The notes below the pieces were generated by a model. That model worked only from the letters and a program-made list of their open reading frames with translations. It had not been told where the DNA came from and did no database searches. The position numbers were made by a program, and so were the translations under genes. From Prevotella sp. (GTDB lineage Bacteria; Bacteroidota; Bacteroidia; Bacteroidales; Dysgonomonadaceae), in contig JAITVV010000051.1 of assembly GCA_031285625.1 (NCBI GenBank), positions 1 to 50,459 on the forward strand: DNA of 50,459 bases, in the 5' to 3' direction. Below are positions 98 to 38,146 of this stretch, one piece after another (positions within the stretch are counted from its first letter, which is position 1; every line of letters starts with the position of its first letter).

Positions 98-529
98 TTA
101 AACATAGGAACTTTTTATAGAATATTCAGTCCAGTCTGTAGTGCCGGATATTGCCAGGGGAGTAAAATTCTGGTATAAATTATCAGCAGATAAAGCTAAA
201 ACCATTTCCCCGGACGAGACATCCTGGCATTTTATATAAATATTGAACTCAACTTCTTTTCCATCAAAGCTCAGCGGTATAGTATTTGAGAAAGAAAGCA
301 TATTATTACTCCCTTCAGATGAGATCATAATGGAATTTTTACCATTATGTACTGCCATAGTATCTACAGATATAGTATATCCTTTACCCATCTTGTTCCA
401 GTTTACAGGCGATTGACTTTCCGTAGAAATATTCTCGAAATCGAGGTTAAAGTCATAGGGCGTCTTGTTGTTTTGTGCTACAACAATCATTGAAAAGCAT
501 AGAAAGAGAAGACCGATCAGTTTTTTCAT
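98..529 (-). CDS. Short secreted protein, probably a truncated carbohydrate-binding-like domain
   Basis: A 143-residue protein begins with a clear Sec signal peptide: a KK start, a hydrophobic core LIGLLFLCFSMIVV, and probable cleavage near AQ. The mature part (about residues 25-143) has a beta-rich pattern with NLDFEN, W-N-K-M-G-K-G-Y, H-N-G-K and a final T-T-D-W-T-E-Y-S-I. From memory this resembles the N-terminal jelly-roll-like domain found ahead of S41 peptidase or esterase domains in Bacteroidales. The reading frame stops just after the TTDWTEYSI segment, where that domain would normally continue, so the gene may be a 3'-truncated remnant. No catalytic domain follows in the 97 bases left in the window. 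Function is unknown, and the family resemblance is inference. Confidence 0.6.
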   Translation of the reverse strand: MKKLIGLLFLCFSMIVVAQNNKTPYDFNLDFENISTESQSPVNWNKMGKGYTISVDTMAVHNGKNSIMISSEGSNNMLSFSNTIPLSFDGKEVEFNIYIKCQDVSSGEMVLALSADNLYQNFTPLAISGTTDWTEYSIKSSYV

Positions 530-675: not shown

Positions 676-706
676 TTTGCTTTTATGAAAAAATGAAATA
701 ACTTTG
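676..706 (+). promoter_or_regulatory. Bacteroidetes-type promoter of the leu operon
   Basis: TTTG at 676-679 and TAACTTTG at 699-706 are separated by exactly 19 bases and match the primary-sigma consensus of Bacteroidetes (TTTG, N19-20, TAnnTTTG). Transcription would start near 712-715, only about 15 bases before the leader-peptide ATG at 728. The stretch 530-675 ahead of it is AT-rich and shows nothing else I can support. Confidence 0.8.
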
Positions 707-727
707 TCATCCAATAATAAAAACAAA

Positions 728-787
728 ATGAATTTACATAGTAATATTATTAGTTCACTCATTCTGCTCTGGAGAAATTTAGGGTGA
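728..787 (+). CDS. leuL: Leucine operon leader peptide
   Basis: A 19-codon ORF reads MNLHSNIISSLILLWRNLG and then TGA. Five of its 19 residues are Leu (TTA, CTC, CTG, CTC, TTA) and three are Ile (ATT), with the dense block I-I-S-S-L-I-L-L in the middle. It begins about 15 bases after the predicted transcription start and is followed by an intrinsic terminator just before leuA. Its mRNA holds two control segments. Bases 754-760 (TTCACTC) can pair with 782-788 (GGGTGAG), which contains the stop codon. The second segment can instead pair with 833-839 (CTCACTC) inside the terminator stem. A ribosome stalled at the CTC-ATT-CTG-CTC codons would cover segment 1 and free segment 2. This is the layout expected of a branched-chain amino acid attenuator. 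The gene symbol is by analogy with enteric leuL; the peptide sequence is unrelated. Confidence 0.8.
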   Translation: MNLHSNIISSLILLWRNLG

Positions 788-825
788 GCATTGCTATGTA
801 GTATATTTAATAAAGAAAAAACTAG

Positions 826-863
826 AGCCTTTCTCACTCGTAACAGATGAGAAGGGCTTTTTT
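826..863 (+). terminator. Attenuator terminator upstream of leuA
   Basis: An 11-base-pair stem pairs 826-836 with 848-858 (one G-U pair) around a loop of about 11 bases and runs into a T tract at 858-863. Its 5' arm contains CTCACTC (833-839), which can alternatively pair with GGGTGAG at 782-788 in the leader ORF. The hairpin ends only 33 bases before the leuA start codon, so read-through is needed for the whole operon. Confidence 0.85.
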
Positions 864-896
864 GTGTAGTAAGCTAATTATATAATAAAAAAAGTT

Positions 897-2387
897 ATGG
901 ACAAGTTATTTATTTTTGACACCACCCTGAGAGATGGAGAGCAAGTACCAGGTTGCCAGTTGAACACAATTGAGAAAATCGAAGTAGCCAAGGCCCTCGA
1001 AATGCTCGGTGTGGATGTTATCGAAGCTGGTTTTCCGGTATCAAGCCCCGGGGACTTTAACTCGGTAGTCGAGATATCTAAAGCCGTAACTTGGCCAACT
1101 ATATGTGCTCTTACACGTGCAGTGGAAAAAGATATTGAAGTAGCAGCCGACGCCTTGAAATATGCAAAGAAGAAACGTATACATACGGGTATCGGAACGT
1201 CCGAATATCATATCAAATATAAATTTAACTCCACACAGGAAGAAATTCTTGAACGTGCGATTGCTTGTGTTAAATATGCAAAACGTTATGTAGAAGATGT
1301 CGAGTTTTATGCAGAAGATGCAGGACGCACCGATAATGCTTATCTGGCGCAGGTTGTACAGGCTGTAGTAAATGCCGGGGCTACTGTTGTAAATATACCG
1401 GATACTACAGGTTACTGTTTACCAACGGAATATGGTGCTAAAATAAAATACTTGATAGATAATGTGGATATGAAGAATGCAATTCTTTCTACACACTGTC
1501 ATCAGGATCTGGGGATGGCTACAGCCAACTCAATTATGGGTGTCCTTAATGGAGCGCGTCAGGTAGAGGTAACCATCAATGGTATTGGTGAACGTGCAGG
1601 AAATACTTCACTGGAGGAGGTTGTTATGGCTATCAGAAGTCATAAGGAATTGGATATAGAGACAAATATTAATACACAAAAGATATATCCTACCAGCCGT
1701 ATGATTTCAAGTTTGATGAATATGCCTGTTCAGCCTAATAAGGCAATCGTCGGACGTAATGCATTTGCCCATTCATCAGGCATTCATCAGGATGGTGTGC
1801 TTAAGAATCTTTCTACATATGAAATAATTGATCCGAAAGATGTTGGAATTGATGATAATGCGATTGTACTTACTGCCCGAAGTGGACGTGCCGCATTAAA
1901 AAATAGATTAAATTTGCTTGGAATTGAAGTAAATGATGATTTACTTGCAGAATATTATCAGCGTTTTCTTGAATTGGCCGATCGCAAGAAAGACATTACT
2001 GACGAAGATCTGCTGATTATTGCCGGGAAGGAAACAAACAAAATGCACCGTATCAAATTGGATTATTTACAGGTAATATCCGGTCTTGGTATTCGCAATG
2101 TAGCAAATGTCGGACTTGATATTGCTGGGGAAAAATTTGAGGCTTCGTCTTCTGGTAATGGGCCTGTTGATGCTGCTATAAGTGCAATAAAGCAAATTAT
2201 CCGTCGCCAGATGGTTATTGAAGAGTTCCTTATTCAGGCTATTAACAGGGGAAGCGATGATACCGGAAAAGTTCATATGCAAGTTTCGCATGAAGGAATG
2301 AACTATTATGGATTTTCAGCAAATACGGATATTGTAACAGCTTCGGCAGAAGCATTTATAAATGCCGTTAACAAATTTGTAAATTGA
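897..2387 (+). CDS. leuA: 2-isopropylmalate synthase
   Basis: LeuA condenses acetyl-CoA with 2-oxoisovalerate to form 2-isopropylmalate, the committed step of leucine biosynthesis. The 496-residue protein has the N-terminal catalytic TIM barrel: the metal-binding TTLRDGEQ motif sits at residues 9-16 and the H-C-H metal-ligand motif at residues 200-202. The GIGERAGN segment follows, then a linker region with SSGIHQDG, and a C-terminal LeuA dimer/allosteric domain from about residue 385. The ATG is 33 bases past the attenuator terminator. As the first structural gene of the leu operon it should be controlled by that attenuator, and probably also by leucine feedback through the C-terminal domain, as known for the family. 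Confidence 0.95.
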
Positions 2388-2450: not shown

Positions 2451-3530
2451 ATGGAGCCTAAGAAATATCAATATATTGATAGCTTAAGAGGAATTGCAAT
2501 TCTTTTGGTGGTGCTAGTGCATGTTGGTATTGTTTTGGATAATACAATAGATTATTTTCCCAAAGACAGCCTTTTATTATCAATTATAGGGAATGGCGCG
2601 TACGGTGTGCAACTATTTCTGATTGTGAGTGCATATACTTTGACAATGTCACATTATAATAGGTTGAATGAACCGAACAAGAATCGGAATTTTTTTATAC
2701 GTCGTTTCTTCAGAATAGCTCCGATGTATTATATTGCTATAATATATTTTACATTAGATAAGTATCTGCAGTTTGATTTTGTAAATCCTGATTTTTCGGT
2801 AATCCCTGTACGTTCTTTATTGAGTAATGTGTTTTTTACCAGTGCGTTGATACCCGAACATACAAATAATTATGTACCTGGGGGTTGGTCTGTTTCTGTT
2901 GAGTTTTTGTTTTATCTAATACTACCTTTTATCTGTAGTAAGATTAAGACAATTAATTCAGCGTTACTATTATTCCTGTCTACTTTAACATTGGCTCTTA
3001 TTGTAGACCCATTTATAAGAGAACATACAATATATCCATATTTTCATGAATATAATTTCTTTGTGCAGTTGCCTGTTTTCCCATTAGGGATATTGGCTTA
3101 TTTCTTTCTGAATAGAGAACAGCACCATATAAAACCAGTAACATGGGTGTTTGCGGCCATTATGGTACTTGTATTTTGCTATATCGCTATACCTAAGCAT
3201 ATAATGTTCAGTTTCGTATTTATGTTGTTACTGATTATACAGGGAAAATATAACTTTAAACTGTTCTCTAACAGATTTTTTTCAGAGGTAGGAAAAGTGA
3301 GTTTCAGTATGTATTTGATACATTTTGCAGTTATTTATTTATTTAACCGGTTTGGATTCTATCATGTTGTAAATATTACTGATTTTTGGACTTCTCTACT
3401 CAATTTCGCACTAATGTATATTATTGTTGCCGGAGTGGCTTTTGCCATATCCAGCGTTACATACCGACTTATAGAGGTTCCCGGACAAAATTTAGGTAGA
3501 AGATTAATTAAAAAACTAGAACAAGATTAA
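2451..3530 (+). CDS. Acyltransferase 3 family membrane protein
   Basis: This 359-residue protein is a member of the acyltransferase 3 (OafA/NodX-like) family, multi-spanning inner-membrane enzymes that transfer acetyl or other acyl groups onto sugars, lipopolysaccharide or polysaccharide. The N-terminus [18 protein letters not shown] carries the conserved arginine and histidine of the first helix. It is followed by [10 protein letters not shown] and about ten hydrophobic segments. The motif S-F-S-M-Y-L-I-H in the C-terminal third is also typical. The gene lies between leuA and leuC, eight bases before leuC. It has no obvious role in leucine synthesis and is best read as a passenger of the operon. 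The acceptor substrate cannot be deduced. Confidence 0.85.
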
Positions 3531-3538
3531 TAATAAGT

Positions 3539-4930
3539 ATGAAAACTTTATTCGACAAAATTTGGGATGCCCATGTGGTGTCATCAGTAGAAAACGGCCC
3601 TACACAATTGTATATCGACCGCCATTTCTGTCACGAGGTTACCAGCCCACAGGCTTTTAACGGGCTTAGGGCAAGAGGACTGAAAGTATATCGTCCCGAG
3701 AAAACGACATTAACAGCCGATCATAATACACCGACTATTCATCAGGATCAGCCGGTAAAAGACCCTATCTCTCGCAATCAGCTAGATACTTTATCTAAAA
3801 ATGCAAAAGACTTTGGGCTTACTTTATATGCGTTGGGTGATAAGAAAAATGGAGTAGTACATATTATTGGACCCGAAAATGGATTTACTCAACCCGGAAT
3901 GACTATTGTTTGTGGTGATAGCCACACGTCTACACACGGGGCTTTCGGTGCTATTGCGTTTGGCATAGGAACCAGCGAAGTAGAGATGGTTCTGGCCACA
4001 CAATGTATCTTGCAAACCCGTCCGAAGACTATGCGTATCACTTTTAATGGAAAGTTAGGTGAGGGCGTTACTGCTAAAGATCTGGCATTATATATGATAT
4101 CCAAGCTAACTACAGGTGGTGCAACTGGCTATTTTGTTGAATATGCAGGCGAAGCTATCCGCAATATGTCGATGGAAGAGCGTATGACCTTGTGTAATCT
4201 TAGTATCGAGATGGGAGCCCGCGGAGGCCTTGTCGCTCCGGATGAAACAACATTTACATACGTAAAAGGACGTGAATTTGCCCCCAAAGGTGAAGCCTGG
4301 GATAAGGCACTGGCTTATTGGAAAACATTGAAAACAGATGAAGGAGCTAAGTTTGATAAAGAACTTACATTTGATGCTGCTGATATAAAACCAATGATAA
4401 CTTATGGAACAAATCCGGGTATGGGTATGGGAATTAATGAATCGATACCTACTCTTGATCAGATTGATGAAGCCGGACGTATTTCATTTCAGAAGTCGGT
4501 GGATTATATGGGATTCAAACCGGGTGAAAAGGTTGAAGGTAAGCAGATCGATTATGTATTCTTAGGTAGCTGTACAAATGGACGTATCGAAGATTTCCGC
4601 ACATTTGCCAATTTCGTAAAAGGAAAGAAGAAAGCTGATAATGTAATCGCCTGGCTGGTTCCCGGTAGTCATATGGTAGTTGACCAGATTAAGGCTGAAG
4701 GGCTGGATAAGATATTAACTGATGCTGGATTCGAGCTTCGTCAACCGGGATGCTCTGCATGTCTGGCTATGAACGATGATAAGGTGCCTGCAGGAAAATA
4801 TGCAGTATCTACATCAAACCGTAACTTTGAAGGTCGTCAGGGTCCTGGTGCACGTACTATCCTTGCCGGACCGTTAGTAGCTGCAGCTGCAGCTGTAACA
4901 GGAAAAATTACAGATCCGAGGAATTTCTAA
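3539..4930 (+). CDS. leuC: 3-isopropylmalate dehydratase large subunit
   Basis: LeuC forms the iron-sulfur subunit of isopropylmalate isomerase, which converts 2-isopropylmalate to 3-isopropylmalate through a dehydration and rehydration. The 463-residue length is normal for the bacterial enzyme. The three cysteines expected to hold the [4Fe-4S] cluster are visible: C345 in LGSCTNGR, and C405 and C408 in GCSACLAMN. The substrate-site motif [12 protein letters not shown] is near residue 125, and the protein ends with the aconitase-type [19 protein letters not shown] segment. It works with LeuD, encoded 110 bases downstream. Confidence 0.97.
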
Positions 4931-5040: not shown

Positions 5041-5631
5041 ATGGAAAAATTTCAAACACTTACATCAACATATGTACCACTTCCTATCGAGAATGTGGAC
5101 ACAGACCAGATTATACCGGCTCGCTTTTTGAAAGCCACAGACAAAGAGGGTTTTGGAAATAATCTTTTTGCCGACTGGCGCTACAACAAGGATGGAAGCC
5201 CCAAAGCTGATTTCGTATTGAATAATCCTACATATAGTGGGCAGATTTTGGTTGCCGGAAAGAATTTTGGTAGTGGTTCCAGTCGCGAACATGCTGCATG
5301 GGCAGTAGCCGGATATGGATTTAAGGCAGTAGTTTCAAGTTTCTTTGCGGATATATTCAGGAATAACTCTTTAAATAACGGAGTGTTACCGGTAGTGGTT
5401 ACACCGGAGTTTCTTTCTGAGATTTTTGACAATGTAAATGCTGATCCTAAAGCAACATTGACTATCGATTTGGAAAAACAAACCATAACCAATGATACTA
5501 CGGGTAAATTCGAATCGTTTGAAATAAACCCTTACAAAAAGGAATGTCTGATGAAAGGTCTTGATGATATTGACTATCTGCTTTCTAAAAAAGAACAAAC
5601 TGAAAAGTACGAGAAAGAGCATACTTTGTAA
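5041..5631 (+). CDS. leuD: 3-isopropylmalate dehydratase small subunit
   Basis: LeuD is the swivelling small subunit that combines with LeuC to make isopropylmalate isomerase. The 196 residues carry the family hallmarks [13 protein letters not shown] near the N-terminus and [15 protein letters not shown] around residues 75-90, followed by the hydrophobic strand ending [10 protein letters not shown]. Length is typical of the bacterial small subunit. The gene follows leuC across the palindromic element and precedes the GH127 gene by 52 bases in the same direction. Confidence 0.96.
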
Positions 5632-5683: not shown

Positions 5684-8137
5684 ATGAAAAATATCATCGT
5701 ATTCTTGTCTTTGTTTGTCTTCGTTTCTGTGAATATGCGTTCTCAGGAAATTCTTACACCTGTTTCATTCGATAAGGTAACTCTTACTGATAATTTTTGG
5801 AGTAACCGTATGAAAATTCAGAAAGAAGTGCTTGTGCCTGTGGCATTTGAACGTACAGAAATAGCCGTGGAGGACCTGAGGCGTACAGCAAATTACCTGA
5901 AAGGAGTGGAAGGTCCTTTGCCTTCCGATAGTAGATTCAGCACTTCGGACTTGTTTAAGGTACTGGAAGGGGCCGCTTATCTGTTGAAGATGGAGCGAGA
6001 TCCAAAGCTTGAGAAACAGATTGATGATATTGCTGATATTATTGCACAGGCCCAGAAAGAAGATGGATATTTATATCCTCCGCATATTACGGGTTCGTAC
6101 AAGACTGCCCCGTTGTGGGGTGGCGCAGGTATGGGTGATAAGCCTTACTCGTGGGTAGTACATAGTCATGAACTATATAATATGGGGCATATGTATGAGG
6201 CTGCCGCAGCATATTATCAGGCAACGGGGAAAAAGAACCTGTTGGATATCGCTGAAAAAAGTGCGAAACATATTAATAAAGTATTCTTTGAAGGGGATGC
6301 GAATTATAATAATGGAAAGCCCGTTAATCAGGCTCCCGGACATGAAGAAATTGAAATAGCCCTGGTAAAGTTATATCGTGTAACAGGAAATAACCTGTAC
6401 CTTGATATGGCGAAGAAATTTGTTGATATCAGAGGTGTAACTTACGTACCCGACGGAGAAGGTACTATGTCTCCTGAATATGCACAACAACAAGCTCCGG
6501 TCAGAGAACAGGATGAAGCTGTTGGTCATGCCGTAAGGGCTGTATATCTATACTCCGGTATGTCTGATATTGGTACATTAAGTAATGATCCTACACTATC
6601 TCCTGCATTGGATAAGATATGGCATAATATTGTAGATACCCGTATGCATATAACAGGAGGGCTCGGGGCCATACATGGAATAGAGGGCTTTGGGCCTGAA
6701 TACGAATTACCAAATAAGGAAGCATATAATGAAACTTGTGCAGCGGTAGGAAATGTATTCTTTAACCATCGTATGTTCCTGCTCGAAAAAGACGGTAAAT
6801 ATATGGATGTTGCAGAGGTTGCTTTACTGAATAATGTACTGGCAGGAGTAAATCTTGATGGTGATAAATTCTTTTATGTAAATCCTCTTGCTTCAGATGG
6901 CATGGTAGACCGCTCGCATTGGTTTGGTACAGCCTGCTGTCCTACCAATCTGGCACGGCTTATACCTCAGGTTTCAGGATTAATGTATGCTCATACTGAT
7001 AATGAAATATATTGCTCTTTTTATACGGGTAGCAGTGTAAACTTTGATCTTTCTTCTGGTAAGGTTGCTCTTGATCAAAAGACGGATTATCCTTTTGATG
7101 AAAGTGTTAGCTTAACTGTAAGTCCGGAAAAAGATAATCAGCAGTTTTCTATAAAAATGAGAATCCCTACATGGACAGGTGCTCAGTTTGTTCCGGGTAA
7201 ACTGTATAATTATATCGATGATAATTCCAAACAATGGGAATTGTACGTTAACGATAAAAAAGTAAATACTATAGTCAATAAAGGTTTTGTCTCTATTACC
7301 AGAAAATGGAAAAAAGGAGATAAAGTAGAATTAAAGCTTCCGATGCCGGTACATTACTCTCATGCTATTGATGAAGTAAAAGCAGATAATGGAAGGATTG
7401 CAGTAACCAGAGGCCCTTTAGTTTACTGTGCCGAAGGTATTGATAATGAGGCGTCACTCAATCGTTATTTTATTAGTGGATATCCTAACGGAATCAATGT
7501 AAATTATTCTCAATCGGGAAAACTTAAAGGTATAGAAACTGTCAGCCTTTCAGCTCAATATATTAGTGCAGATGGTACTGTTAATAACACACAGTTAAAT
7601 ATGATTCCATACTATGCATGGAATAACAGAGGCATTTCGCAAATGAATGTCTGGTTTCCCGAATCGGAAAGTATCGCAAGGGAGAACATCTCTGAAATAT
7701 CTTTATTATTGAAGGACATCAAAGCATCATATACAAACGAAGGGGAAGATGTTAATTCGATAGTAGATGGGAAATATCCGGAAAGCTCATCAGATACTCA
7801 TGTTCAGCGTTGGACTTCCTGGTCACAAAAAGGGAAAGAGCAAACAATAGAATTTACATTTGAGAAACCTATTGATATAAAAGCCTTTTCTGTATACTGG
7901 TATGATGATAACGGAGGAGTACAAATGCCTGTTTCATGGGATCTGGAATATAGGGATGATGGCATTTGGAAAGTTTTTCCTCTATATAGTACCGATTCAT
8001 ATAGTTTAATAAAAGATCAGTTTAATCTTGTACACTCAGATGGCGGTTCATTTGTTGTAAAAGAACTCAGACTGAATATGAAACCGAAAGCCAATAGTGC
8101 AGTCGGCATATTACAAGTGAAATTTGATACCAAATAA
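5684..8137 (+). CDS. Secreted GH127 glycoside hydrolase, probable beta-L-arabinofuranosidase type
   Basis: This 817-residue protein starts with a signal peptide (about 20 residues, ending near MRSQ), so it should act outside the cytoplasm. The body matches the DUF1680/GH127 alpha-alpha barrel. The cysteine-glutamate zinc site that defines the family is visible: E350 and C352 in NETCAAVGN, and the pair C418-C419 in ACCPTNLARL, with C418 in the position of the cysteine nucleophile known from HypBA1. From about residue 690 the chain ends in a beta-rich domain with F-T-F-E-K-P-I-D-I-K, resembling an F5/8-type carbohydrate-binding domain. Known relatives release beta-L-arabinofuranose, but specificity varies. 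The gene sits between leuD and a LeuA-type synthase in the leucine operon, an odd position for a polysaccharide-degrading enzyme. Confidence 0.9.
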   Translation: MKNIIVFLSLFVFVSVNMRSQEILTPVSFDKVTLTDNFWSNRMKIQKEVLVPVAFERTEIAVEDLRRTANYLKGVEGPLPSDSRFSTSDLFKVLEGAAYLLKMERDPKLEKQIDDIADIIAQAQKEDGYLYPPHITGSYKTAPLWGGAGMGDKPYSWVVHSHELYNMGHMYEAAAAYYQATGKKNLLDIAEKSAKHINKVFFEGDANYNNGKPVNQAPGHEEIEIALVKLYRVTGNNLYLDMAKKFVDIRGVTYVPDGEGTMSPEYAQQQAPVREQDEAVGHAVRAVYLYSGMSDIGTLSNDPTLSPALDKIWHNIVDTRMHITGGLGAIHGIEGFGPEYELPNKEAYNETCAAVGNVFFNHRMFLLEKDGKYMDVAEVALLNNVLAGVNLDGDKFFYVNPLASDGMVDRSHWFGTACCPTNLARLIPQVSGLMYAHTDNEIYCSFYTGSSVNFDLSSGKVALDQKTDYPFDESVSLTVSPEKDNQQFSIKMRIPTWTGAQFVPGKLYNYIDDNSKQWELYVNDKKVNTIVNKGFVSITRKWKKGDKVELKLPMPVHYSHAIDEVKADNGRIAVTRGPLVYCAEGIDNEASLNRYFISGYPNGINVNYSQSGKLKGIETVSLSAQYISADGTVNNTQLNMIPYYAWNNRGISQMNVWFPESESIARENISEISLLLKDIKASYTNEGEDVNSIVDGKYPESSSDTHVQRWTSWSQKGKEQTIEFTFEKPIDIKAFSVYWYDDNGGVQMPVSWDLEYRDDGIWKVFPLYSTDSYSLIKDQFNLVHSDGGSFVVKELRLNMKPKANSAVGILQVKFDTK

Positions 8138-8161: not shown

Positions 8162-9673
8162 ATGATAGAAATAATGGATACTACCCTGAGAGACGGCGAA
8201 CAAACATCCAGTGTTTCGTTCTCTGCTCAGGAAAAAATGAGTATAGCGCACCTGCTGCTTGTCGATCTCGGTGTAAACCGTATCGAAGTGGCTTCTGCCC
8301 GTGTTTCGGAAGGTGAATTCGAGACAGTAAAAAAGATTGCCGGATGGGCAGCTGCCACAGGGCATATCGATAAGATAGAAATACTTGGGTTTATAGATAA
8401 GGGGGCTTCTCTTAACTGGATAAAGGATGCAGGCTGTAAAACGATAAATCTCTTAACCAAAGGTTCGTACAAACATGTTACAGAGCAGTTGCGTAAAACA
8501 CCCGAGCAACATCTTCAGGATGTTAAGGCAGAAGTAGAACTTGCCCAAAAGCTGGGTATTACAGTAAATGTATATCTTGAGGACTGGTCTAACGGTATTA
8601 TAAATTCCGAAGATTACGTCTATTATATGATGGATGGAATGAAAGACCTTCCTATTAAGCGTTTTATGATTCCCGATACATTAGGAGTACTGAATCCTCA
8701 TAGCACCTGGCGGTGCTGCCGCCGTATGATAAACCGTTATCCTAATCTGCATTTCGATTTCCATGCTCATAACGATTATGACCTTGCTGTCGCTAATACA
8801 ATGGTTGCTGCCGAAGTAGGAGTAAAGGGTGTACATCTTACTATGAATGGACTGGGGGAAAGGGCTGGAAACGCATCTTTAGCCAGTGTGATCGCCGTAT
8901 TTCATGATCAATTGAAGATAAAGACCTCGATCAGGGAAGAATATATAAACAGGGTAAGCCGTGTTGTTGAATCTTATTCAGGGCAGACAATATCAGCTAA
9001 TCAGCCTATTGTAGGAGACAATGTATTTACTCAATGTGCCGGAATACATGCTGACGGAGACAATAAGAATAATCTCTATTTCAATGATCTTTTCCCCGAG
9101 CGTTTTGGGCGTGTGCGTGAGTATGCATTAGGTAAATTATCTGGCAAATCCAATATCCGAAAAAATATTGAAGCTCTTGGTATAGAATTGGATGAGGCAG
9201 ATATGATGAAGGTAACAAACCGTGTGATCGAACTAGGTGATAAAAAAGAGATTATCACACAGGATGACTTGCCATATATCATTTCAGATGTACTGAAAAA
9301 TAATGAAAAAGAGAAACGGATCAAAATATTATCCTTTGCTTTTGTACTCACCAAAGGCTTGCGTCCTACCGCCACAGTGAAAGTAGAGATCGACAGACAG
9401 GAATATGAATGGACTGCTCCCGGTGATGGTCAGTATCATGCCTTTTCTAAGGCTCTATGGAAGATATATACAAGATTGAATAAACCAATTCCTAATTTGA
9501 TTAATTATACGGTGTATATTCCACCGGGCGGCCGTACTGATGCTTTGGTACAAACTGTTATAACCTGGGAATTTAATGGTAAGACTTTCAAAACAAGGGG
9601 CCTTGATGCCGACCAGACCGAAGCTGCAGTAAAAGCAACAGAAAAGATGTTGAATATGATAGAGGATATGTGA
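8162..9673 (+). CDS. Second LeuA-family synthase (isopropylmalate or citramalate synthase type)
   Basis: A 503-residue paralogue of LeuA has its own TIM barrel (D-T-T-L-R-D-G-E-Q at residues 6-14, metal histidines H201 and H203 in FHAHND, and GLGERAGN). It also has a complete C-terminal LeuA dimer/regulatory domain with R-G-L-D-A-D-Q-T at the end. It differs from the LeuA at 897-2387 throughout, for example E-V-A-S-A-R-V-S-E-G instead of the [10 protein letters not shown] segment. Enzymes of this group condense acetyl-CoA with a 2-oxo acid, either 2-oxoisovalerate (leucine) or pyruvate (citramalate, feeding isoleucine). The sequence alone does not decide between them; a CimA role is plausible because LeuC, LeuD and LeuB can process citramalate products. 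It is co-directional with the other leu genes and 24 bases after the GH127 gene. Confidence 0.85.
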   Translation: MIEIMDTTLRDGEQTSSVSFSAQEKMSIAHLLLVDLGVNRIEVASARVSEGEFETVKKIAGWAAATGHIDKIEILGFIDKGASLNWIKDAGCKTINLLTKGSYKHVTEQLRKTPEQHLQDVKAEVELAQKLGITVNVYLEDWSNGIINSEDYVYYMMDGMKDLPIKRFMIPDTLGVLNPHSTWRCCRRMINRYPNLHFDFHAHNDYDLAVANTMVAAEVGVKGVHLTMNGLGERAGNASLASVIAVFHDQLKIKTSIREEYINRVSRVVESYSGQTISANQPIVGDNVFTQCAGIHADGDNKNNLYFNDLFPERFGRVREYALGKLSGKSNIRKNIEALGIELDEADMMKVTNRVIELGDKKEIITQDDLPYIISDVLKNNEKEKRIKILSFAFVLTKGLRPTATVKVEIDRQEYEWTAPGDGQYHAFSKALWKIYTRLNKPIPNLINYTVYIPPGGRTDALVQTVITWEFNGKTFKTRGLDADQTEAAVKATEKMLNMIEDM

Positions 9674-9682
9674 TCGGTTCAG

Positions 9683-10687
9683 ATGAAAGAAGAAAGAATA
9701 GAGTGGGTAGATATAGCTAGAGGAATTGGTATAGGATGTGTTGTTATGGGGCATATCTTTTCATCCCAGATGCTGGCTCATAAAGTTATATTCTTGTTCC
9801 ATATACCTCTTTTCTTTTTTGTGAGCGGTTTTTTGTATAAAAGACAATCAGATAATAAAGCATATATAATTAAGAAAGCTAAAAGCTTGCTTGTACCCTA
9901 TTTTTCAGTATTTGCTTTTGTCTTTCCTATTCTTATTTTTGCTTATATGCCTGAAGGTTATACACTCAATATGATAGCATGGGATACATTGTATTATGTG
10001 CTTGGCGGGTGTTATCTGAGAGGACTGGTCTATGATATATTTATAGCAATGTGGTTTATTACCTGCTTATTCCTTGTACAGGTTATTTATAATTATATAC
10101 AGACAAGATTTAAAGAGCAAACTATCCATGTTGTTATATTCATAATGCTTATTGGGGCTTATATAAATAGTATAATTTATCCAGGTTTCTGGCTTCCATG
10201 GTCAGCCAATGTAACTCTAATGGCAATACCTGTTTATCACTTGGGTTATATATCCAGACAGATTAATGTGGATAAATATTCAATATTATTTATTATTGCC
10301 GGGCTTTTAATCTGTGCAAGTCTTATTGTATTTCCGCAGAACACTTTTGATATGATGCGCAATAGTTATGGTATTCCCTTTGTTACTCTTATTTCTGCTA
10401 TTATCTGCATTTATATGGTAAGGTATATATCTGTAATTATTGCTAAAAACAGTATATTGAAAAGGATATTATCCGAATTTGGAAAAGCTTCACTTGTTAT
10501 TATGGCTTTCCACTTGCCGGTATATCAACTTCTATGGAAATATTTTGAGATAAGTTCGATTCCGGCTATCATTGTAATTACAATAATCCCTTATCTGTTT
10601 TATCGTATATTTGATAAATTTAAAATAACACAGATGCTTTTTTTAGGTAAATTCACCAAGATTAATAATTCGAATAAACAAGATTAA
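9683..10687 (+). CDS. Acyltransferase 3 family membrane protein (second copy in the leu operon)
   Basis: A 334-residue, multi-spanning protein opens with R-I-E-W-V-D-I-A-R-G-I-G-I and G-H-I-F. This is the shorter, NodL/OatA-like version of the acyltransferase 3 motif with its conserved arginine and histidine. About ten hydrophobic helices follow, including H-I-P-L-F-F-F-V-S-G-F-L-Y. Related enzymes O-acetylate cell-surface sugars. It is clearly divergent from the other acyltransferase of this operon (2451-3530), yet the two genes share the identical 15-base sequence AACAAGATTAATAAT at their 3' ends. The start codon is nine bases after the preceding synthase, and leuB follows by 21 bases. No link to leucine synthesis is evident. 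Confidence 0.82.
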   Translation: MKEERIEWVDIARGIGIGCVVMGHIFSSQMLAHKVIFLFHIPLFFFVSGFLYKRQSDNKAYIIKKAKSLLVPYFSVFAFVFPILIFAYMPEGYTLNMIAWDTLYYVLGGCYLRGLVYDIFIAMWFITCLFLVQVIYNYIQTRFKEQTIHVVIFIMLIGAYINSIIYPGFWLPWSANVTLMAIPVYHLGYISRQINVDKYSILFIIAGLLICASLIVFPQNTFDMMRNSYGIPFVTLISAIICIYMVRYISVIIAKNSILKRILSEFGKASLVIMAFHLPVYQLLWKYFEISSIPAIIVITIIPYLFYRIFDKFKITQMLFLGKFTKINNSNKQD

Positions 10688-10708: not shown

Positions 10709-11779
10709 ATGAAATTAAACATTGCAGTACTCCCGGGAGATGGGATCGGACCTGAAATAATAGAACAGGCCTTGAGAGTGACAGAAGCCGTATGTGAAAA
10801 ATATGGTCACGAACTTAGTTATGAATATGGTTTGGTGGGTGCATCGGCTATCGATCAGGTTGGAAATCCATATCCTGATGGTACACATGAACTTTGTATG
10901 ACATCGGATGCTGTATTGTTTGGTGCAATAGGTGATCCCAAATATGATAACAATCCTTCAGCTAAAGTGCGTCCTGAGCAGGGGCTTTTAGCAATGCGTA
11001 AAAAACTGGGACTCTATGCTAATCTTCGCCCGGTAAGTACATTCCCGACTTTGATCCATAAATCACCACTTCGCTCCGATCTGGTAGATGGTGCAGATTT
11101 TATGTGTGTTCGTGAGCTGACCGGAGGTCTGTATTTTGGACGCCCTCAGGGACGTAGCGAAGATGGAGATACAGCTTATGATACATGTGTATATACCCGC
11201 GAAGAAGTAGAAAGGATCTTACACCTTTCGTACAAATATGCACAAATGCGCCGCAAAAAAGTGACAGTGGTAGATAAAGCAAATGTACTGGCTACATCCC
11301 GTTTGTGGAGGCAGGTGGCCCAGGAGGTAGAAAAGCAATATCCGGAAGTAGAAACAGAATATATGTTTGTGGATAACGCTGCTATGCAGATTATCCAATG
11401 GCCAAAACGTTTTGATGTATTAGTAACTGAAAATCTTTTTGGAGATATTCTTACTGATGAAGCATCTGTTATTACCGGATCTCTAGGTATGTTGCCTTCA
11501 GCTTCTATCGGTATCCATACATCGGTATTCGAACCGATACATGGCTCGTATCCGCAGGCAGCGGGAAAGAATATAGCTAACCCATTGGCTACAATATTGT
11601 CTGCAGCTATGATGTTTGAGTATGCGTTCGAACTGAAAGAAGAGGCCGAACTAATCCGTCAGGCGGTTGATGCTTCTATGAATGCCGGTGTGGTTACTGA
11701 AGATATTTCTCTGAAAGAAGGTAAGGTCCATTCTACATCTCAGGTAGGAGACTGGATTGTAAATTATATAAAAGGATAG
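10709..11779 (+). CDS. leuB: 3-isopropylmalate dehydrogenase
   Basis: LeuB oxidises and decarboxylates 3-isopropylmalate to 2-oxoisocaproate with NAD+, the last dedicated reaction before transamination to leucine. The 356 residues show the family features: [10 protein letters not shown] at residues 8-17, the R[10 protein letters not shown] segment, [12 protein letters not shown], and the metal-site D-N-A-A-M-Q with [12 protein letters not shown]. The NAD-binding E-P-I-H-G-S-Y-P segment is also present. It is the last gene of the operon and is followed directly by an intrinsic terminator. Confidence 0.97.
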
Positions 11780-37378: not shown

Positions 37379-37564
37379 TGTTTTTGGTTTTTATTTATTA
37401 ATATTTATTATTGTATTTATATAAATCGATATGCCATATGTTCGCTACAAATGGCAATATGATTGATACATACTACAATCATCTCAGTTCAGTTCTAGTA
37501 ATCAGAGAAATTCTCTTATGTGCTTTCAAAACCTTTTTCGCGAAGGTCGAAATTTATTGTTTTT

Positions 37565-37757
37565 GGCAGGTCTTCTGACTTACTCCGTTTGTACTACCTT
37601 CCCATTTCCAGTTGCCGGTAAACGACTCACTGCTAATAGTGGTTTAGAGGATTTGTACAAACACTTCTGTAGAGCTTACAGCAGCGCGACTGTTCAGGAT
37701 TTACACCTGATTCCCTTTTCATTACTCTTCCGAAGAATACGGATTTGTAACACCAAC
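37565..37757 (-). ncRNA. Cobalamin riboswitch
   Basis: On the minus strand the sequence has the conserved blocks of the B12 aptamer: G-G-G-A-A-T-C then AGGTGTAAATCCTGAACAGT, C-G-C-G-C-T-G-C-T-G-T-A-A-G-C, a G-G-G-A-A-G-G block, and the closing AGTCAGAAGACCTGCC. These match the P3-P6 core and B12 box seen upstream of cobalamin genes in Bacteroidetes. The leader to the CWC gene is another 186 bases. It contains a stem (37429-37437 with 37451-37460) and a weak hairpin near 37535-37551, either of which might be the expression platform. I see no classic terminator, so the effect may be on translation or through one of these stems. Boundaries are approximate. Confidence 0.9.
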
Positions 37758-38146
37758 ATGTGAAACAAAGATATGGAATTATATATAACAACAATTTTTT
37801 TGAAGAGAAAGTTTTTAACAACAATAAAAAGGCTTACAAATGAGATAAATAAAAGAGGTTACCCATATCACATGGATAACCTCAAAGAATAAAAAGGTAT
37901 TGAGAGTGTTCTCATCTGGTCATATCAGGACCAGCCAACAGTAATTATACTTACTCTTGTTATATTGTATAAGGCAATATATATGCCATTATGTATTGTT
38001 TTTGTATAACTATATGGCTGAAATATAATATATTAACAGATTTATTGATTCGTAAATATTATATATTATCTTTTTGCTGTATTTTATTTCTTTTAACTGA
38101 CAGAATGTCTTGCATTCTTTATTATTGTTAATGTATTGGAATAAAA
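37758..38146. other. AT-rich intergenic region with no coding sequence
   Basis: No ORF with a credible start or composition is seen here. The minus strand carries a hairpin CTGGTC/GACCAG near 37915-37940, a short GAGA/TCTC hairpin beside it, an AGAATG/CATTCT hairpin near 38103-38118, and the isolated terminator at 37855-37883. That combination could mark a small RNA transcribed on the minus strand, but I find no consensus promoter for it. Confidence 0.4.
37855..37883 (-). terminator. Isolated intrinsic terminator on the minus strand
   Basis: GAGGTTA and CCAT pair with ATGG and TAACCTC (one mismatch), and on the minus strand the stem is followed by TTTTATTT. Upstream on that strand the next gene, hslR, already has its own terminator at 38147-38171, so this one may end an unannotated transcript or stop read-through into the riboswitch. 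Confidence 0.75.

Follow-up and report, generated by a model that had tools for sequence, protein, structure and literature searches.

A putative ribosome-mediated attenuator of the leucine gene cluster in a Dysgonomonadaceae genome, with counterparts across Bacteroidales

What controls transcription into the leucine genes of a bacterium that lacks an evident Shine-Dalgarno site in front of its leader? The question is raised by a 50,459 nt stretch of DNA (the window, meaning the whole of the sequence analyzed, forward strand) from Prevotella sp., placed by GTDB in Dysgonomonadaceae (GCA_031285625.1, contig JAITVV010000051.1). A 367-base gap between leuA and a divergent small gene holds a putative promoter, a leader ORF, pairing segments and a terminator. 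A first-pass annotation had read them as a ribosome-mediated attenuator of the leucine operon, and conservation, coevolution across genera and spacing support that reading: very probably, the leu gene cluster is governed from this gap by transcription attenuation of the classical, ribosome-mediated type. The evidence, drawn from sequence and comparison, consists of the parts, their conservation, their coevolution and their spacing. The features are as follows.

98-529, minus strand: small upstream gene, transcribed away from leuA
676-706, plus strand: putative Bacteroidota-type promoter, with TTTG at 676-679, a 19 nt spacer and TAACTTTG at 699-706
728-787, plus strand: leader ORF of 19 codons plus TGA, MNLHSNIISSLILLWRNLG
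736-760, plus strand: segment 1, the 5' arm of the protecting hairpin, within the leader ORF (from single-sequence folds)
754-760, plus strand: TTCACTC, the part of segment 1 that pairs with 782-788
758-769, plus strand: control codons CTC-ATT-CTG-CTC (Leu-Ile-Leu-Leu)
782-788, plus strand: segment 2, GGGTGAG, sharing bases with the leader TGA; its hairpin has a 3' arm that reaches 799
826-863, plus strand: intrinsic terminator, with an 11-bp stem (826-836/848-858), a loop of 11 and six T (858-863)
833-839, plus strand: segment 3, CTCACTC, the antiterminator partner of segment 2, its first bases in the 5' arm of the terminator
897-2387, plus strand: leuA, 2-isopropylmalate synthase (TIGR00973, 649.7 bits, above cut-off)
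3539-4930, plus strand: leuC (TIGR00170, 677.6 bits, above cut-off)
5041-5631, plus strand: leuD (TIGR00171, 200.2 bits, above cut-off)
8162-9673, plus strand: citramalate-synthase-like gene (best match NF042433 CimA, 655 bits, below the cut-off of 950)
10709-11779, plus strand: leuB (TIGR00169, 461.9 bits, above cut-off)

The genes follow one another on the same strand in the order leuA, acyltransferase, leuC, leuD, GH127-like, citramalate-synthase-like, acyltransferase, leuB, and the cluster from leuA to leuB is presumed to form a single transcript. Genes without a leucine role split it: two of the acyltransferase-3 type and one GH127-type glycoside hydrolase (2451-3530, 5684-8137 and 9683-10687). 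The product of 8162-9673 is probably citramalate synthase (CimA), on a route to an isoleucine precursor, and its gene may be a reason for the Ile codons in the leader. Among the named relatives found, a Dysgonomonas MAG is the nearest (LeuA, 94%).

Promoters in Bacteroidota follow the consensus TTTG-N19-21-TAnnTTTG. The consensus promoter noted in the first-pass annotation is borne out as one of this type, TTTG/TAACTTTG, conserved within the genus: TAnnTTTG occurs within 330 nt upstream of leuA in all 23 same-genus regions checked, and the full TTTG/TAnnTTTG pair (spacer 17-22) in 22 of them. The pattern is weak taken by itself: the window holds four exact matches where 1.35 would be expected, and in a wider set just 70 of 127 leaders have TAnnTTTG 8-70 nt 5' of their ATG. 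A scan for E. coli-type promoters found none on the plus strand at the leader; its consensus is that of E. coli, and the host promoter type differs. Promoter activity at 676-706 is predicted from these sequence patterns.

Between this promoter and leuA, the first gene, lies a short ORF rich in codons for the product of the cluster. It contains five Leu codons (at 734, 758, 764, 767 and 779) and three Ile codons (at 746, 749 and 761) in 19, a count that had been given before and proved exact on retranslation. Its stop codon, 785-787, is 109 nt upstream of leuA. For leader statistics, the longest suitable ORF was taken in each of 113 distinct regions and the same choice was applied to dinucleotide shuffles; presence of an ORF was the entry condition for all 113 regions, and 39% of shuffles have one. 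Leu and Ile make up 0.38 of leader residues, compared with 0.21 in the shuffle ORFs, and runs of at least four consecutive Leu/Ile occur in 87.6% of the 113 leaders versus 2.4% of 2213 shuffled ORFs. In 111 distinct leaders Ile and Leu each make up 19%, and Val 4%. The proposal of a leucine-sensing leader needs widening: Ile codons match Leu codons in frequency across the leaders and probably carry signal alongside them. The leaders favour CTA and CTC, which make up 234 of their 473 Leu codons; in nine long ORFs of the window the two supply 43 of 355. Such a skew is expected if rarer codons act as sensors; pairing constraints could favour these codons too.

An intrinsic terminator stands before the first structural gene. 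Folding of the leader region with the terminator reaches -42 kcal/mol; shuffles average -26.3 +/- 3.8 (z -4.1), and none of 200 did as well. A terminator scan of E. coli type, with loops of up to 8, gave no site at the leader; the actual loop is 11. With the terminator excluded, 740-825 folds no better than shuffles (z -0.54), and from the leader ATG to just before the terminator z is -2.4 in the window and below -1 in 75 of 80 loci. The best single-sequence fold combines 736-744/791-799, 753-760/782-789 and the terminator; the consensus fold of aligned relatives (RNAalifold) picks another apical helix, 767-772/779-784.

Both segment pairs of the first-pass annotation, 754-760 with 782-788 and 782-788 with 833-839, have coordinates that are right to the base. 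The first of these pairings stands as a part of the 1:2 hairpin, which is larger than the 7 bp claimed. Likewise, the leader stop codon falls inside segment 2, as described, in the window and its close relatives, and beyond segment 2 in other relatives; the exact leader partner of segment 2 varies between clades. The 1:2, 2:3 and 3:4 pairings (segment 4 being 848-858) are mutually exclusive. In stepwise folding of the window sequence, 1:2 has probability 1.0 with nothing occupied, 2:3 has probability 1.0 with positions up to 781 occupied and segment 4 unmade, and the terminator forms with segment 2 covered. Once segment 4 is present, the terminator is more stable than the antiterminator by 5.2 kcal/mol; the on state must therefore depend on kinetics, not on equilibrium.

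Does the element recur in relatives, as the first-pass annotation required of it? Within the family, a LeuA-type match was present in 92 of 101 genomes and 78 of the 92 regions were read. Leader and terminator hairpin were found in 77 of the 78; the other region (L029) has the terminator, the rest being cut by the contig end. One set of leuA upstream regions, with a few species present twice, came from 30 same-family genomes and 80 named genomes. In these 110 regions an automated rule found an anchor-type terminator in 84, with a leader ORF alongside in 80. Among its 26 misses, six (L052, L062, L063, L064, L067 and L109) keep a Leu/Ile-rich leader and a hairpin, most of the six having a poor T tract. 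L087 has a hairpin with an ORF less rich in Leu/Ile, L093 has a Leu/Ile-rich ORF with a weaker hairpin, and the regions of L065 and L073 are cut short. The remaining 16 of 110, mostly from other Bacteroidales, showed no leader or terminator of this kind on reading. The upstream regions of L010 and L032 read alike.

A second set of 80 regions comprised 4 from other Bacteroidales, 28 from other orders of the class and 48 from the family. All four other Bacteroidales were positive, as were 43 of the 48 family regions by script and the other five on reading. These five loci (L160, L161, L167, L177 and L189) all have leaders, and the T tract is poor in L161, L167 and L177. The leader of L189 is found only via GTG, which stands as the start where relatives use ATG, with frame and peptide kept. 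None of the 28 leuA regions from other orders had the element directly upstream; 34 other-order genomes had some match, the six weak or partial ones lying outside the 28. In two of these other-order loci, L119 and L121, another coding sequence apparently extends close to leuA, so an attenuator directly upstream is not expected there. Overall, the leader, its Leu/Ile cluster, the helices and the terminator recur across Bacteroidales, and the putative element is widespread in that order, though not universal. Four loci titled Flavobacteriaceae or Apibacter (L036, L037, L042 and L046) carry a leuA 82-86% identical to that of the window with an attenuator of the same kind, possibly through operon transfer from a Bacteroidales donor or through misassigned MAG titles.

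The first-pass annotation also proposed covariation analysis of leuA leaders. Alignment A1 holds 26 sequences from Dysgonomonas and near neighbours. In it, 2:3 is 98.9% paired and the 1:2 helix of the first-pass annotation 91.3%, neither with a two-sided change; the terminator is 97.6% paired and the alternative apical helix 767-772/779-784 98.1%, each with one two-sided pair. For 1:2 and 2:3 shuffles do equally well on pair counts. A1 is too conserved to be informative for these two helices, and covariation support for them therefore comes from swapping partners across genera. By way of description, the segments shift together: GTGAG/CTCAC in some genera is GCGAG/CTCGC in others, and GGGTGAG/CTCACCC corresponds to GAAGTGAG/CTCACTTC.

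In the partner-swap permutations the best match was re-searched each time. Own partners beat swapped ones across genera for each helix, in permutations that do not model the tree and so ignore relatedness. For 2:3 the own partner scored 18.7 versus 15.8 for swapped ones (sd 0.23; 110 distinct leaders), the best of 10,000 permutations reaching 16.7; with the 61 loci that have a distinct segment 3 the values were 18.1 versus 15.1 +/- 0.29 (best permutation 16.2). For 1:2 the energies were -17.0 versus -13.0 kcal/mol (sd 0.30, n=88), the own partner beating the mean of the others in 79 of 88 loci, and for 3:4 they were -17.4 versus -14.3 kcal/mol (sd 0.28, n=43).

Ribosome placement was computed with an assumed footprint of -15 to +12 nt around the A site. 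On this assumption, when the ribosome sits on the final codon of the Leu/Ile/Val run, its front edge is a median of 1 nt short of segment 2 (quartiles 1-3, 95th percentile 15 nt; 109 of 111 distinct leaders measurable). In the window, with the A site on 767-769, this distance is likewise 1 nt. Once at the stop codon, the ribosome hides the whole of segment 2 (8 nt) in 82 of 109 leaders and 5 nt or more in 102; in the other 7 it hides 2 or fewer. With this footprint, then, a stalled ribosome would free segment 2 and a terminating one would cover it, 7 of 109 leaders being unfit at the stop. The placement logic of stall and stop proposed at first pass is thus matched by a spacing that suits ribosome stalling. 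One detail counts against the model: the final leader Leu codon, TTA at 779-781, abuts segment 2, and a stall there would favour termination.

For the window we infer the following scheme, including translation of the leader, the stalling, its response to amino acids and the kinetic order of events. Transcription would start just after 706, and a ribosome would enter the 19-codon leader, before which there is no evident Shine-Dalgarno site. If charged Leu-tRNA, and probably charged Ile-tRNA too, runs short, the ribosome would stall on the control codons at 758-769, opening the hairpin that holds segment 2 and halting just short of that segment. The freed segment 2 would pair with nascent segment 3 before segment 4 is made; this pairing would block the terminator, and leuA, leuC, leuD, the cimA-like gene and leuB would be transcribed. 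With both amino acids ample, the ribosome would reach the stop codon at 785-787 and cover segment 2, leaving 826-836 to pair with segment 4, and transcription would end at 858-863. If the leader carried no ribosome at all, both the 1:2 hairpin and the terminator would form, again an off state. The attenuator would in this way sense leucine and probably isoleucine.

Other explanations of the same region were weighed. A riboswitch-like attenuator, in which the RNA senses a ligand or protein and the small ORF is incidental, would fit a leader that is strongly structured and conserved in nucleotide sequence among close relatives. It would also fit a weak match to the RF04312 trpB motif (31.3 bits), which is called a riboswitch candidate in a passage whose authors leave a classic attenuator possible (PMC11109978). 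We regard this explanation as very unlikely, as the RNA sequence differs from genus to genus whereas a Leu/Ile-rich ORF is kept, codon spacing relative to segment 2 is tight, and Rfam yields no family at cut-off for the leader or for the loci of 20 relatives. The RF04312 match (E 0.012) is below the gathering threshold of 59 and was rejected; the two elements share a two-hairpin architecture. Rfam gathering scans of the window and the 20 relatives' loci returned no attenuator family. RF01692 (Bacteroid-trp) had no match at leuA (600-950, to E 10), and RF00512, the Rfam enterobacterial leucine leader, was not among the three Rfam matches for 600-950 up to E 10.

It is scarcely credible that the element is a plain terminator shielding leuA from upstream transcripts, with a chance ORF and no amino-acid sensing. 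The terminator is indeed the strongest single element, and terminators alone match the covariance model R1 weakly. However, the upstream gene (98-529, minus strand) is divergent and a genus-conserved promoter separates it from the terminator, which must then act on the leu transcript; moreover, segments 1, 2 and 3 coevolve with their partners and the ORF content is far from chance. R1 matches of about 33 bits or less are untrustworthy, reverse-strand matches reaching 31 bits, and two such matches (L227, 32.7 bits; L229, 30.7 bits) were plain terminators on reading. Nor is there much to be said for the ORF as a working small protein, or as a device for reinitiation on leuA instead of termination, which Korolev et al. 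propose for leaders near the gene: close relatives conserve the peptide well, but between genera it varies freely except in Leu/Ile content, and its stop lies 109 nt from leuA with the terminator between, compared with distances that peak at about 10-16 bp in the passage cited (PMC4833913).

The putative attenuator of leuA has company in the same genome, where attenuator-like leaders precede trpB, ilvD and hisG (L112, L113 and L114). The trpB leader, MNFLLTNTFWWWHSQLEKS, contains WWW and matches RF01692 at 51.3 bits, the only match of that family in the genome and on another contig than the window; trpB itself matches TIGR00263 at 583 bits. The hisG leader is MSNKLHHHHFTLLPLGE, with HHHH, and the ilvD leader, MTNCFLHILNLVILLVGQSK, is rich in Leu, Ile and Val. 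A terminator-like hairpin precedes each of the three genes. The trp and his leaders rest on their sequence, trp also on RF01692, and are not supported by R1.

Leader codons also vary with gene content. Of 31 ilvD loci, 21 carry a Val-containing leader with a terminator, 7 carry none and 3 were unparsed; five of the seven leaderless cases are in genomes with ilvD near leuA, and in one genome (G031) ilvD is unlinked to leuA and no ilvD leader was found. We compared leu leaders in 51 family genomes with the leuA upstream region available and ilvD placed, reading four leaders by eye and leaving out G098, in which leuA is at a contig edge. Where ilvD is within 12 kb of leuA, all 24 genomes have Val in the control stretch of the leu leader; of the 26 others, one does (G021). 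The pattern is confounded with the two main clades, and 'not linked' mostly means different contigs of drafts. In two single-contig genomes (G023 and G034) ilvD is firmly unlinked. Exceptions occur outside the family: two Apibacter loci (L042 and L046) have ilvD within 8 kb of leuA and no leader Val, and L104 has leader Val with ilvD on another contig. We lean towards the view that Bacteroidales use classical attenuation as a standing layer of regulation in which leader codons follow the content of the gene cluster, an ilvD gene apart from leuA having a Val-containing leader of its own (21 found). If so, it would imply tight coupling of polymerase and ribosome in a phylum that initiates translation without Shine-Dalgarno sites.

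Leader-peptide attenuators of this type are best compared with E. coli leuL and its kin. The enterobacterial leu, ilv, trp and his leaders are alike in having a short leader peptide rich in the amino acids that the operon makes, exclusive hairpins, a terminator upstream of the first biosynthetic gene and the position of the ribosome as sensor. The Bacteroidales leu leader differs in the absence of an evident Shine-Dalgarno site, in having Ile as frequent as Leu and in its promoter type, and Rfam matches for 600-950 up to E 10 include no enterobacterial amino-acid leader. The broad attenuation survey of Lopatovskaya et al. (2010) may cover Bacteroidetes, and we do not claim priority for leu. 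No paper on a Bacteroidota leu attenuator was found among the literature matches listed, judged by titles and abstract openings.

The first-pass annotation pointed to enteric attenuation logic in a distant phylum; the mechanism is not new to that phylum, attenuation of amino-acid operons having already been hinted at in Bacteroidota. Bacteroid-trp (RF01692) was described as a cis-regulatory candidate of Bacteroidetes by Weinberg et al. (2010; PMC2864571); like the leu element it is upstream of an amino-acid gene and has a terminator, but the amino acid and gene are others and the leu element falls outside that family. A 2021 transcriptome of Flavobacterium psychrophilum, with transcript maps, reports 'strong clues' of leader-peptide attenuation before amino-acid operons, the same proposed mechanism in the same phylum, though in a different family and with no leu operon in the passage cited (PMC9723704). 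A 2020 transcriptome map of B. thetaiotaomicron describes sORFs in long 5' UTRs as 'reminiscent of leader peptides', and Bacteroidales mRNAs as lacking Shine-Dalgarno sites, in the portion cited (PMC7366714). Farther away, the Corynebacterium ilvB (ilvB-II) uORF motif has an Ile/Leu/Val-rich uORF, a terminator and an antiterminator, but belongs to another phylum and another gene, ilvB, and is likened here by its description (PMC11109978). Naville and Gautheret (2010), in the passage cited, knew of no prior leader-peptide system beyond Proteobacteria and Actinobacteria, ermC aside, their own case being Firmicutes his (PMC2965389). As far as our searches go, what is added here is the leu leader family and its breadth in Bacteroidales; that breadth, and the match of leader codons to cluster genes within one family, appear to be the strongest new points.

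Leader-peptide attenuation needs a ribosome close behind RNA polymerase, and the Bacteroidales leaders would offer a natural reporter of transcription-translation coupling in common gut bacteria, along with a testable picture of how leucine, isoleucine and valine are sensed there. For annotation, alignment A1 and model R1 describe an element that has no Rfam family at cut-off. Elsewhere in the window, a Cobalamin riboswitch is found at 37548-37772 on the minus strand (RF00174, 83 bits).
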